64,000 nucleotides of DNA from Phytoactinopolyspora limicola. Lineage in GTDB: Bacteria; Actinomycetota; Actinomycetes; Jiangellales; Jiangellaceae. The first letter of the stretch is position 1; each line of letters starts with the position of its first letter. The stretch lies in assembly GCF_011320225.1 (NCBI RefSeq), contig NZ_JAAOEN010000010.1, positions 1 through 64,000 on the forward strand. Direction: 5' to 3'. A program made the position numbers and the translations under genes. The notes under the pieces were generated by a model. The model did no database searches. It was not told the origin of the DNA and saw nothing but the letters and a program-made list of their open reading frames with translations. Below, in pieces: positions 2,927 through 42,095 of this stretch.

Positions 2927-3568
2927 ATGCGCCTGCTCGCCGTCGACCATCCGCTCGTCGCTCACAAGCTCGCCGTGCTGCGAGACAAGAACACCAACTC
3001 ACCTACGTTCCGGTTGCTCACCGACGAGCTCGTGACGTTGCTCGCCTATGAGGCCACCCGCGATACCCGGGTAGAGGAGACTGAGTTCGAGACCCCGGTG
3101 GGGCTGGCCCGTGGAGTCAAACTTGCCGCACCTAAACCTATGGTCGTGCCGATCTTGCGGGCGGGGCTAGGGATGCTCGACGGCATGACCCGGCTCCTAC
3201 CCACCGCGGAGGTCGGTTTCCTCGGCATGATCCGCAACGAGGAGACGCTGGAGGCCACCACCTACGCCAATCGCCTGCCTGACGACCTCACCGGCCGGCA
3301 GTGCTACGTGCTGGATCCGATGTTGGCCACCGGCGGCACGCTGGCCGCGGCTATCGGCTACCTGGTGGAATGTGGGGCTGATCAGATCACCGCGGTGTGT
3401 TTGCTCGTCGCGCCTGAGGGGTTGGCGCTGGTGGAGCGCGAGACCGCCCATCTGGGTGTGCCTATCACCGTGGTGACGGCGGCCGTCGACGAGCGGCTCA
3501 ACGACAAGGGATACATCGTTCCCGGCCTGGGTGATGCCGGGGACCGGCTGTATGGCCTGGCTGACTGA
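2927..3568 (+). CDS. upp: Uracil phosphoribosyltransferase
   Basis: Pyrimidine salvage enzyme making UMP from uracil and PRPP in the cytosol. The 213-residue product carries the PRPP-binding motif [10 protein letters not shown] (about 129-138) and the C-terminal uracil-binding signature [12 protein letters not shown] (196-207), and matches the usual family length. The ATG at 2927 is preferred to an in-frame upstream start at 2876 because it gives the canonical N-terminus. It is divergent from tadA with about 130 bp between them, and convergent with pntB. Confidence 0.95.
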
Positions 3569-3703: not shown

Positions 3704-5074
3704 CTACATCGACTTGACCCCGCCCACGAGGCCGGTCAGCGAAGCTTTGGCGTCGCCGAACAGCAGCGTGGTTTTCGGGTGGTAGAGCAGCTCGTTCTCG
3801 ATCCCGGCGAAACCCGGCCGCATGGAGCGCTTGAGGAACACGACGGCGCCGGATTGGTCCACATCGAGGATGGGCATGCCGTAGATGGGGGAATCCGGTG
3901 CGGTGCGCGCCGCGGGGTTGACGACGTCGTTGGCCCCGACGACGAGCGTGACGTCGGCGGTGCGCATCTGGCCGTTGGCCGTGTCCATCTCCAGGAGCTG
4001 CTCATAAGGGACGTTGGCCTCGGCGAGCAGCACGTTCATGTGTCCTGGCATCCGCCCGGCCACCGGGTGGATGGCGTAGGCGACCTCGATGCCGCGGCTC
4101 TCGAGCAGCTCTACCAGCTCGTGGATGGTGTGCTGGGCCTGAGCGACGGCCAGCCCATAACCAGGGACGATCATCACCTTCTGCGCGTAGTTGAGCATGA
4201 TGGAGACGTCGTCGACGCTGGCCGAGCGGACCGGACGCTGTGACTCGGTGGTGCTGCCCGCGGTGGAACCGCCGCGGAACGCGCCGAACAGGATGGAGCT
4301 GATCGATCGACCCATCGCCTGTGCCATCAGGCGGGTCAGGATGGTGCCGCTGGCGCCGACCAGGGTTCCACCGATGAGGAGCAGGGCGTTGCCGAGGATG
4401 TAACCGCCGGCTGCCACGGCCATACCGGTAGCGGCGTTGAGCAAGGAAATGGCGATAGGTACGTCGGCGCCGCCGACCGGTAGCACCAGCAGTACACCCA
4501 CCACCAGGGCGAGGGCACCAAGGGTGGCGGCGACCCAGGTCTCGGTGCCACCTCCGCCGTAGAGGACGGCCACGAGGGCGAGTGTGGCGGCCAGGGTGAT
4601 GCTGATCAGCGCCGGACCGCCGGGCGGGGTGACCGGGCGGGTGGTGATGATTTCTTGCAGCTTCAGGAAGGTAACCAGCGATCCGCTGAAGGCGATGGCG
4701 CCGACGGGAACGGTCAGGACGGCGGCCAGGAGCGGAAAGACGGTCTCGGCGTCGGTCAGCTCGAGATAAGCCACCAACCCGGCCGCTCCACCGCCGACCC
4801 CGTTGAACAGCGCGACCAGCTGCGGCATGGCGGTCATCGCGACTTTGCGTGCAGCCGGGATACCGATGGCGCATCCGACGGCGATGGCCCCGAGGATCCA
4901 TGGCAGGTTGTCCAGCTCGTAGACGATGAACGTGATGATCATCGCTGCCAGCGCGGCTACCGCGCCGAGGAGGTTGCCAGCACGCGCGGTCTTGGGTGAG
5001 GACAACGCTTTCAGCGCGAGAACGAAACAGATCGCGGCGGCTAGGTAGGCCAGCTGAGCCCAGGTGTCGATCAC
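3704..5074 (-). CDS. pntB: Proton-translocating NAD(P)+ transhydrogenase subunit beta
   Basis: Membrane subunit of the enzyme that couples hydride transfer between NADH and NADP+ to proton movement. The 456-residue protein has about nine membrane segments, then the NADP(H)-binding domain III with the VPGYGLAVAQAQ motif and the MPGHMNVLLAEANVPY and GANDVVNP segments of this family. The GTG at 5074 overlaps the TGA of pntAB (GTGA), so translation is probably coupled; an upstream in-frame ATG lies inside pntAB and is not credible. Third gene of the pntAA-pntAB-pntB operon. Confidence 0.95.
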   Translation of the reverse strand: MIDTWAQLAYLAAAICFVLALKALSSPKTARAGNLLGAVAALAAMIITFIVYELDNLPWILGAIAVGCAIGIPAARKVAMTAMPQLVALFNGVGGGAAGLVAYLELTDAETVFPLLAAVLTVPVGAIAFSGSLVTFLKLQEIITTRPVTPPGGPALISITLAATLALVAVLYGGGGTETWVAATLGALALVVGVLLVLPVGGADVPIAISLLNAATGMAVAAGGYILGNALLLIGGTLVGASGTILTRLMAQAMGRSISSILFGAFRGGSTAGSTTESQRPVRSASVDDVSIMLNYAQKVMIVPGYGLAVAQAQHTIHELVELLESRGIEVAYAIHPVAGRMPGHMNVLLAEANVPYEQLLEMDTANGQMRTADVTLVVGANDVVNPAARTAPDSPIYGMPILDVDQSGAVVFLKRSMRPGFAGIENELLYHPKTTLLFGDAKASLTGLVGGVKSM

Positions 5075-6674: not shown

Positions 6675-6748
6675 GGGTGGTTCCCATGATCATGAACACT
6701 TTGCCGTGTGATCACACGGCAAAGTGTTCATGATCATGGGAACCACCC
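6675..6748. repeat. 74-bp perfect palindrome with no loop
   Basis: Two 37-bp arms meet at the central GTGTGATCACAC and match perfectly from 6675 to 6748. The outer part contains CCCATGATCATGAACAC and its complement. It sits between the divergent pnt operon and the small gene at 6841, so it is not at a transcript end in the simple sense. It shares the CCCATGATCAT edge with the palindrome at 24670. Confidence 0.9.
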
Positions 6749-24073: not shown

Positions 24074-24673
24074 GTGAGTGGCGATATCGACCGCACCCTG
24101 ACCGACGTTGGTCCTCGGCTGCGAGCGCTCCGGCTCCAGAGCGAGTTGACGCTCGGTCAGCTGGCCGAGGTCACGGGTATCTCGTTGAGCACTCTCTCCC
24201 GCCTGGAGTCGGGCCAACGGCGGCCCACCCTCGAGTTGTTGTTGCCACTTGCCCGGGCGCACCAGGTGTCACTCGACGAGCTGGTCGACGCACCCGATAC
24301 CGGCGATCCGCGGATCAACGCCAAGCCCATCACCCGTGGTGGCATGACGTTCGTGCCCCTCACCCGGCAGCTGGGCCACGGCTTGCAGGCGTTCAAGCAG
24401 ATCATCCCCGGGGTGGACGCCCAACGTGCCGTGGCGCCGGAAACACGGGTGCATGAAGGTTACGAGTGGTTGTACGTTCTGTCCGGTCGGCTGCGGCTCG
24501 TCCTCGGCTCACACGATCTCGTTCTCGGCCCCGGCGAGGCAGCGGAGTTCGACACCCGCGTCCCGCACGGGATCGCGGCGGCCGGTCCCGAGCCGGTTGA
24601 GGTCCTCAATATCTACGGGCCCCAGGGGGAACGTATACACGTGCGAGCGCGCCCCAAGCCATCAACCCCATGA
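24074..24673 (+). CDS. XRE-family helix-turn-helix regulator with C-terminal cupin
   Basis: A 199-residue regulator: HTH_3 at about 10-65 (LRLQSELTLGQLAEVTGISLSTLSRLESGQRRP) and a cupin fold from about 110 (HEGYEWLYVLSGRLRLVLG...GEAAEFDTRVPHGI). The cupin His and Glu residues could bind a metal or small ligand. GTG start at 24074. It is divergent from the reductase-methyltransferase fusion, and the GGCAAA dyads between them are its likely operator. Its stop codon lies inside the 52-bp palindrome shared with the convergent LmeA gene. Confidence 0.85.
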   Translation: MSGDIDRTLTDVGPRLRALRLQSELTLGQLAEVTGISLSTLSRLESGQRRPTLELLLPLARAHQVSLDELVDAPDTGDPRINAKPITRGGMTFVPLTRQLGHGLQAFKQIIPGVDAQRAVAPETRVHEGYEWLYVLSGRLRLVLGSHDLVLGPGEAAEFDTRVPHGIAAAGPEPVEVLNIYGPQGERIHVRARPKPSTP

Positions 24674-24721
24674 TCATTGGCTTTTGACTACCGAATTCGG
24701 TAGTCAAAAGCCAATGATCAT
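24670..24721. terminator. 52-bp perfect palindrome containing the stop codons of both convergent genes
   Basis: The sequence 24670-24721 is a perfect loopless palindrome centred on CCGAATTCGG. The TGA of the XRE-cupin gene (24671-24673) and the TGA of the LmeA gene on the other strand (24718-24720) sit at mirror positions within it. Each transcript would therefore fold a 26-bp stem beginning at its stop codon, which suggests a shared bidirectional terminator, although no T-run follows. Confidence 0.75.
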
Positions 24722-25461
24722 CGGGACAACATGACGTCGTCGGCGGCGACGAGTACCTCGAAACCAGCGTCGGATGGCCGGGCCGTGGTGACCCTGAGTC
24801 CGTAGGGCAGCACCGGTAGCGGCACGTCCACCGACAACGCCCGGGTGATCTGATCGACCTGCTCACGGGCCTGGGCCGGAAGCTCGGCCAAGCCCTCGGC
24901 GGCCAGCTCGCCGACCCGCATCTGCAGAGTGTTGCCGTCGACACTCACGGTGGCGGAGCCGGTCAACGTGACGGTTGTGCCGACGACCTCGACCGGTAGC
25001 CGCACCGCGACCGCGTCGCCACCTGCGGCCGCCAGCTCCAGCCCATCCAGACCGGTGGAGTTGGCGACACTCTGGTAGTCGATCAGGCCAGCACCTTCGA
25101 CCCGGTCGGCATGGATAGCGCCCGATCTGTCGAGCAACGTCGACATCGATGCTGTCACACCCGTCGCGGTCAGTTCGACCTCGGGCAGGCGCGCCTCGCC
25201 AGTGCCCACGTCGCGCAGCTGGACCGTCACCTCGCGATACTCTCCGGCGGCCACCTGGGTCAGGAATGGGAACCCGCCGATGCTGACGTCCGGGTGGCCG
25301 GACCGCACCTCGTTCCTGGCCAGCTCTGCCGCTACCTGATCGGCGACCACCCGGCCACCGACCCAGGACGCCACTCGGTCGGCGACAGCCAGTAGTGCGC
25401 CAACTACCACCAGCACGATGAGTATCCGTCGAAAGGTCCGCACGAGCGACCACTCTCTCAT
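24718..25461 (-). CDS. LmeA-like phospholipid-binding protein (DUF2993)
   Basis: A 247-residue protein with one N-terminal membrane anchor or signal segment (about 10-28) and a DUF2993 body: VADQVAAELARNE...VSIGGFPFLTQVAAGEYREVTVQL is the family's characteristic opening. In mycobacteria LmeA supports envelope glycolipid maturation at the outer face of the membrane. An in-frame GTG at codon 7 is a possible alternative start. Convergent with the XRE-cupin gene; no operon partner. Confidence 0.85.
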   Translation of the reverse strand: MREWSLVRTFRRILIVLVVVGALLAVADRVASWVGGRVVADQVAAELARNEVRSGHPDVSIGGFPFLTQVAAGEYREVTVQLRDVGTGEARLPEVELTATGVTASMSTLLDRSGAIHADRVEGAGLIDYQSVANSTGLDGLELAAAGGDAVAVRLPVEVVGTTVTLTGSATVSVDGNTLQMRVGELAAEGLAELPAQAREQVDQITRALSVDVPLPVLPYGLRVTTARPSDAGFEVLVAADDVMLSR

Positions 25462-41337: not shown

Positions 41338-41373
41338 CTTGTCCATGATCATGTGTTCGTGACCATGGACAAG
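41338..41373. terminator. Near-perfect palindrome between convergent epoxide hydrolase and TetR genes
   Basis: CTTGTCCATG (41338-41347) pairs with CATGGACAAG (41364-41373), and the pairing continues inwards (TCATG with CGTGA, including a wobble pair) to a TGTT loop. It overlaps the TetR stop codon at 41349-41351. The CCATGATCAT edge matches the palindromes at 6675 and 24670. Confidence 0.6.
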
Positions 41374-42095
41374 GTGGGGGCCGGGTCCGACCAGGGGAAG
41401 CCGGAGGACAATGCGGCCAGCCGGACGGTCGAGACGAACAGGGCGTCACGTGCCTCCGGGGTGAGGAAGCCGAAGTGCCCGTACGTTTCGAGGGACACGA
41501 AACCGTGCAGTGCCGACCAGCAATGCAAGCAGGCCTGAAAAGTCTCGGCCGGCACCGTGGCTTCGGCCGGTTCGCTGGCGGCTTGCTTGGCGATGATGCA
41601 GCCCAGCAGGGCGTCGTCTACCTCGTGGATGGTGGGTCTGCCGAGCATGCCCCGGGCGGCCGCTTCGGCGAACAGTGATTCGAGTTGGGCCATCGCCCGG
41701 CGCGCCGCCTCAGTGGTGGGCCCTTCGTCTGGCGCCACGTAACCCGGGACGGGCATGCCGAAGATGAGGGCGAACCGTTGTGGCTCCTGGTTGACCCACC
41801 GCCGATAGGCGCTGGCGACGGCGAGGAAGCTGCCGGAGAGATCGTCGGCGGACGCCCGCGCCCGGCTTTCGGCGACAGTGGTTCCAAGATCGTCGAACGC
41901 GTCGACGATCAGCGCGGTCAGCAACTCGTCCCGGTCGGCGAAGTAACGGTAGAGGGCCGGCGCGGTCATACCCATCGAGCGAGCGATGTCCGAGAAGCGG
42001 ATGTCGGTGCTGCCGTGTTCGCGCATGAGCGACAGGGCGGTTTCCTTGATTTCGTCGATGGTGGCCGCCCTGGCCCGTTCCCGTCGTGTCGTCAC
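41349..42095 (-). CDS. TetR family transcriptional regulator (WHG-type C-terminal domain)
   Basis: A 248-residue regulator with a TetR HTH in the first 60 residues (TDIRFSDIARSMGMTAPALYRYFADRDELLTALI) and a ligand domain with RRWVNQEPQRFALIFG and CWSALHGFVSLE typical of the TetR_C_13/WHG group. It is divergent from the MMPL transporter, with several TGACG half-sites between them, and is likely its repressor. Confidence 0.88.
   Translation of the reverse strand: MTTRRERARAATIDEIKETALSLMREHGSTDIRFSDIARSMGMTAPALYRYFADRDELLTALIVDAFDDLGTTVAESRARASADDLSGSFLAVASAYRRWVNQEPQRFALIFGMPVPGYVAPDEGPTTEAARRAMAQLESLFAEAAARGMLGRPTIHEVDDALLGCIIAKQAASEPAEATVPAETFQACLHCWSALHGFVSLETYGHFGFLTPEARDALFVSTVRLAALSSGFPWSDPAPTLSMVTNT

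Follow-up and report, generated by a model that had tools for sequence, protein, structure and literature searches.

Dispersed loop-free palindromes with TGATCA feet that provide stop codons at gene ends in an actinomycete, and their possible role as two-way terminators

Background

The REP sequences of the GTAG and CGTC superfamilies (Di Nocera et al. 2013, PMC3733652) are high-copy, dispersed palindromes, with several families present in a single genome. Most of their copies are located between genes that converge or run in the same direction, and the ends of GTAG REPs often give the flanking genes their TAG stop codon (PMC3733652); the donation of a stop by a palindromic repeat is therefore not new. 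In Neisseria and the Pasteurellaceae, a single repeated motif, the DNA uptake sequence, forms many terminator hairpins when it occurs as inverted pairs, and it is also found singly, in 1000 or more copies (Kingsford et al. 2007, PMC1852404). The U-less or I-shaped terminators of Streptomyces, each a separate sequence recognized by its mapped 3' ends, have a strong stem and no U-tract and are located at gene ends, some of them serving both strands (PMC8269248). In E. coli, inverted repeats of a general kind, with arms from 5 bp and mostly forming parts of canonical intrinsic terminators, show enrichment at gene ends and directly behind stop codons (PMC6060812).

Here we describe two families of repeats, F1 and F2, represented in the window, by which we mean the whole 64-kb stretch of DNA that was analyzed. 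Like the REPs they are high-copy dispersed palindromes with more than one family per genome, but they are distinguished from the known REPs by a two-sided, paired TGATCA foot instead of an unpaired, one-sided GTAG or CGTC tag, by a fixed, loop-free core of 50 bp instead of a palindrome of 20-40 bp, by the exchange of families at a fixed site, and by the RAYT transposase, which is present in genomes with GTAG REPs whereas none was found in the host of F1 and F2. As a stop they offer TGA, on either strand, rather than TAG. They share with the inverted uptake sequences the use of one repeated motif in inverted pairs, but number only about 180 copies, with paired arms (F2 arms checked). They resemble the Streptomyces terminators in stem, placement and lack of a U-tract, but constitute a repeat family known from sequence alone; they resemble the E. 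coli inverted repeats in their enrichment, but are one dispersed kind. They fall outside the canonical Rho-independent terminators, in which a GC-rich hairpin is followed by a U-tract. A search of the open-access literature, outside which most subscription journals lie, found no description of these repeats; one of the short strings occurs in 61 papers, and the 15 of them that were listed appear to have no connection with bacterial repeats.

Results and discussion

A perfect palindrome holding two facing stop codons

The sequence ATGATCATTGGCTTTTGACTACCGAA|TTCGGTAGTCAAAAGCCAATGATCAT at positions 24670-24721 of the window is a perfect 52-bp palindrome with arms of 26 nt and no loop. At the composition of the window an arm of this length is expected about 3e-10 times per 64 kb, and no arm reached 14 nt in Markov-shuffled sequence from 400 kb of this genome. 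The palindrome separates convergent genes coding for an XRE-cupin regulator and an LmeA-like protein, whose TGA codons occupy exact mirror positions within it (Table 1). This arrangement had been pointed out in a sequence-only reading of the window and is confirmed here. TGATCA contains TGA on either strand, which lets a single copy end two genes that face each other. Folding of this copy gives -47 to -51 kcal/mol, depending on the strand. A consensus scan for Rho-independent terminators recovered no site at this position, and Rfam gave only sub-threshold matches, chiefly to miRNA-precursor models, as expected for a long perfect hairpin.

Table 1. Coordinates of the palindrome, its flanking genes and related elements in the window
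Feature	Position	Strand	Remarks
XRE helix-turn-helix and cupin regulator gene, left partner	24074..24673	+	HTH_3, E 3.9e-15; Cupin_2, E 2.2e-15
Left outer stem CCCC	24666..24669		short and imperfect in this copy; final cupin codons (PSTP)
F1 core, foot to foot	24671..24720		TGATCA, 19-nt arm, 19-nt arm, TGATCA; 50 bp, no loop
XRE-cupin stop TGA	24671..24673	+	inside left TGATCA foot (24671-24676)
LmeA stop TGA	24718..24720	-	inside right TGATCA foot (24715-24720), reads TCA on the + strand
Right outer stem CGGG	24722..24725		final LmeA codons, minus strand
LmeA-like phospholipid-binding protein gene, right partner	24718..25461	-	PF11209, E 1.6e-30
F2 element	6675..6748		74-bp perfect palindrome; same TGATCA feet as F1, different interior
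Related hairpin, outside the F1/F2 assignment	41338..41373		between another convergent pair; one TGATCA foot is the stop of 41349-42095 (-)

The edge ATGATCAT is common to this palindrome and to those at 6675-6748 and 41338-41373, and occurs eight times in the window against an expectation of 0.35. The earlier reading was thus right that the three share an edge, and that the palindrome at 41338 overlaps a stop codon. Two further features of the window are a cluster of inverted GGCGATCAGATGCAC copies near its start (148-467) and a 19-nt perfect inverted repeat (3574-3592/3642-3660) with a 49-nt spacer; the latter is not of the TGATCA type and sits between the convergent called genes 2927-3568 (+) and 3704-5074 (-).

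Comparison with homologs indicates that neither protein was truncated by the palindrome, since relatives share the same end points without it. The median end of 80 relatives of the cupin protein is residue 199 in the numbering of the query, which has 199 residues; its conserved part stops at HVRARPK, and only the last four residues (PSTP) look element-like. Likewise, the LmeA C-terminus LSR* recurs in the sister species G004 and G001, both of which lack a palindrome at this place. In G004 the LmeA stop is still spelled CTCTCCCGGTGATCA, as some F1 copies have it at their left edge, which might point to a decayed element there. Truncation of either protein by the palindrome was rejected. An LmeA homolog from another genus (L064; G021:C26:41378-42010) shows two in-frame TGA codons and may represent a pseudogene or a sequencing error.

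Two high-copy families of fixed architecture

We searched the window's own genome (6.59 Mb in 40 contigs) for further copies and found the element at 24670-24721 in dozens of near-identical places. The F1 core GACTACCGRATYCGGTAGTC has 92 occurrences with at most two mismatches, and a reversed control of it has none; the F2 arm TGATCATGAACACTTTGCC has 90 forward and 89 reverse matches, corresponding to about 90 copies. Together the two families amount to approximately 180 copies, scattered through the genome and mostly situated at gene ends. Their architecture is strikingly constant: the foot-to-foot length is exactly 50 bp in 54 of 54 F1 and 50 of 50 F2 copies read, and TGATCA is present at both ends, paired, in all 104. 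The whole genome holds 269 TGATCA pairs 25-50 nt apart, a count that includes chance and coding matches. The feet are flanked by a pyrimidine tract to the left and a purine tract to the right; these are most pronounced over about the nearest 13 nt and have faded by about 25 nt. Over 105 copies with 10-nt flanks the mean fold is -59.8 kcal/mol, and T makes up only 13% (0.128) of the 20 nt beyond the hairpin, i.e. there is no U-tract. The copies hence show the stable hairpin near a stop codon, without a U-tract, that characterizes an I-shaped terminator.

Two models of origin were set aside on the basis of these searches. The places listed for the F2 arms are close pairs, save a few with a diverged partner arm; with F2 arms not found singly, the uptake-sequence model was rejected on the arms of this family. 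A duplication of TGATCA inside an older hairpin, i.e. insertion into pre-existing palindromes, is likewise unsupported, because in 400 kb of the genome no solitary TGATCA was flanked by four or more complementary bases.

Covariation and symmetry of the arms

Changes in one arm are compensated in the other: GGCTGTTGAC stands opposite GTCAACAGCC in two copies, and GACCACCG opposite CGGTGGTC in four. The outer stems vary among copies, and their within-copy complementarity at positions 1-10 exceeds that of all 2000 permutations; at positions 11-16 it does not. Pairing with covariation is also maintained in the lower stem of the elements of G001 and G002, both sister species (at one pair, CG in 11 strings and TA in 11; 0 of 1000 permutations as good), and the interiors are variable. 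These strings, of which 25, 29 and 16 were used among the matches listed, were found by a pattern demanding intact feet, so that the conservation of the feet in G001 and G002 is partly a property of the sample.

The symmetry of the centers bears on the possibility that the elements act as DNA, either as the dyad target of a protein or as a cruciform absorbing supercoils between convergent genes. The central pair 24-27 of F1 is symmetric in 50 of 54 copies (GC in 32, AT in 18) even though it is unable to pair in RNA, the two intervening bases being too few for a loop; this, the loop-free perfect symmetry and the excess between convergent genes (see below) would all suit such a site. The F1 symmetry may reflect either two founder lineages or a symmetry at the DNA level. 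In F2, however, the same pair is matched in only 25 of 50 copies, i.e. the centers are not symmetric, and the variable interiors over a covarying lower stem in G001 and G002 are more hairpin-like than expected of one binding site. We accordingly consider a DNA-level role highly improbable.

Placement at gene ends, stop codons and C-terminal tails

To place the copies we used genes called with a purpose-written codon-usage caller (89% coding on 400 kb), relying only on the stops, as its starts are unreliable. The sample comprised 105 distinct copies, 100 of them classifiable; as its windows were mostly picked for holding a copy, the density of copies is not derivable from it. Convergent, tandem and divergent gene pairs hold 39, 51 and 10 of these copies respectively, compared to 190, 763 and 170 among all gene pairs. 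The convergent class is thus over-represented (P ~1e-7), whereas the divergent class is depleted per intergenic base (P ~6e-6) but not significantly so per gene pair (P 0.09). In 47 of the 51 tandem cases the upstream stop is no more than 40 nt away from the copy. A 400-kb stretch taken without selection has an element at five of its 61 convergent pairs and none at the other 56.

Among the 131 gene 3' ends that face an element, 54 stop exactly at the TGA of TGATCA, 52 stop 0-40 nt before the element, 18 farther away, and seven deeper inside in another frame. Given that equal use of the frames would put the TGA class at about a third of the genes reading in, this is a strong in-frame bias (54 versus 7; P ~5e-19, genes reading straight through being outside the count). 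Both mirror TGAs are used in eight of the 39 convergent pairs, inclusive of the XRE-cupin/LmeA pair. The sequence-only reading had proposed that the element either inserted at the gene ends and brought its stops or evolved as a compact bidirectional terminator. A dispersed repeat with frequent use of its TGA and an element-encoded Pro/Ser tail lends support to the former, and placement and fold fit the latter. It had further reasoned that the idea would fall if relatives kept their C-termini without the palindrome and no other gene pair showed the arrangement: the natural ends do coincide without it, but seven other convergent pairs have the same double stop.

The use of the foot as a stop leaves a mark on the proteins. 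Pro and Ser account for 36% and 16% of the last five residues of genes ending in an element TGA, as opposed to 7% and 7% in element-free genes; tails such as PSP, PLP and PSR arise because these genes run through the pyrimidine edge of the element. For instance, the protein of the gene adjoining the copy L181:6043 ends in ...LHPLSLHPHSR here and in ...LRPLSP in the sister species, the rest of the protein being 86% identical.

That the foot provides the exact stop for about half of the genes facing it could also be explained by a post-transcriptional element, i.e. a hairpin at the stop codon that stalls or releases ribosomes or shields the 3' end of the mRNA with no termination of transcription; there is a report that REPs lying no more than 15 nt from a stop codon cause ribosome stalling and reduce translation (PMC12306157). 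Nevertheless, the convergent excess and the bidirectional symmetry better match a two-way end, and 52 other genes stop 0-40 nt upstream of the element, which makes this explanation improbable.

A probable two-way transcript end

We favor, as the reading that is probably correct, that F1 and F2 are dispersed, REP-like repeats that act as U-less two-way terminators or as hairpins at 3' ends, that copying or conversion spreads them, and that they are retained at places where the TGA is in frame. On this proposal, the plan of pyrimidine tract, TGATCA foot, two 19-nt arms, TGATCA foot and purine tract would place at either side a foot that terminates any gene entering in the right frame. Transcription from either side would yield a very stable hairpin, most likely halting RNA polymerase both ways as a U-less ('I-shaped') terminator and/or blocking 3' exonucleases. 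Copies would be spread or homogenized through a copying or gene-conversion process, and those with an in-frame TGA would tend to persist, the cost to the gene being a short Pro/Ser tail. Against termination stand the missing U-tract, the 56 of 61 convergent pairs in 400 kb that have no element, the symmetry of the F1 central pair in spite of its inability to pair in RNA, the approximately seven or eight copies flanked by well-supported divergent genes, at which no gene comes to an end, and the closeness of the hairpin to a translated stop: in E. coli the ribosome can reportedly repress a terminator located very close behind such a stop (PMC4824070). Since the stem is long, enough of the hairpin may stay closed above the ribosome.

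Should this be borne out, a single short repeat would determine where transcription ends, which stop is used and which residues come last for dozens of proteins at once, on both strands, and would offer a high-GC actinomycete a route to compact two-way gene ends without U-tracts. F1 and F2 would also be candidate insulating parts for actinomycete genetics.

Possible exchange and spread of copies

The comparison with the sister species G004, approximately 88% identical at rpoB, rests on four tandem pairs in synteny, each with an element in one species or both. At the first site both have F1, with a compensated GACTACCG/GACCACCG difference that is common among the copies of each species. At the second, the orthologous gene end carries F1 here and F2 in G004, at the same place and with outer tracts that are recognizably homologous. 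The third site has F1 here and no element in G004, and the fourth a third family in G004 and no element here. The first two sites fit homogenization and an exchange of interiors between the TGATCA feet, although the sites are too few to distinguish gene conversion from re-insertion. More speculatively, and in our estimate unlikely, the families might make up a self-homogenizing pool of terminator cassettes, whose interiors are swapped between TGATCA feet at fixed sites by a putative lineage-specific recombination. Were this so, many gene ends would share a source of stop, C-terminal tail and terminator, and each species would rewrite the pool. Different cassettes at the same site in sister species provide a natural experiment in which termination strength, arm repair and spread could be compared. 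The third family of G004 is edged by TTGATCATGGGC/GCCCATGATCAA and, at 58 bp, is longer than F1 and F2 (G004:C1 102592-102649, 207363-207420 and 390874-390931).

The sites occupied in one species alone, the high copy number, the near identity within a species and the distinct families of each genome are also what a non-autonomous mobile element of the MITE- or REP-like kind would produce; its insertion at gene ends would make any terminator effect incidental, with the 3'-end bias representing the survivors of selection against insertions in promoters and coding regions. Yet profile searches with PF01797 (RAYT, the Y1 transposase) were negative in all 22 genomes of the family, with five of 14 controls positive, and a REP with RAYT was rejected on this ground. 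Further, the places listed for the F2 arms hold them only as close pairs, with no insertion sequence bearing such ends among them, and at the single empty site read no clean target duplication could be made out in intergenic sequence that is too diverged. The structure is, moreover, preserved through covariation. We hence regard a mobile element, too, as an unlikely explanation. A viral origin was rejected, no exact F1 or F2 arm being present in the viral collection.

Distribution across the actinomycetes

TGATCA pairs were matched in 22 of 22 genomes of the bacterial family to which the host belongs, with 39-269 in those at least 90% complete; most other Actinomycetes searched have 0-45, many resembling coding sequence, and the 39 of G006 do not stand out clearly from that background. 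The repeat families differ between genomes, with near-identical copies within a species. One genome searched, G010, gave three rpoB matches (C1 5894, 7705360 and 7714283) near both ends of a single-contig assembly, one of them reversed, which is probably an assembly overlap artefact. Matches in G046, G096, G098 and, more weakly, G149 suggest that TGATCA-edged repeats arose elsewhere in the class; the elements read in G046 and G096 have architectures different from F1 and F2. G096:C1 and G149:C2, from unrelated families of the class, hold further TGATCA-edged hairpin families (TGATCATGCACRTCCTGGG... and TGATCATGCACGTTCGCCCC...). In G046:C1, from another actinomycete family, TGATCATGCAATCCCGCCACCC units are arranged in head-to-tail and inverted clusters with a spacing of about 35-60 bp (e.g. 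150637-150750 and 1810226-1810399), in contrast to the single palindromes of F1 and F2.
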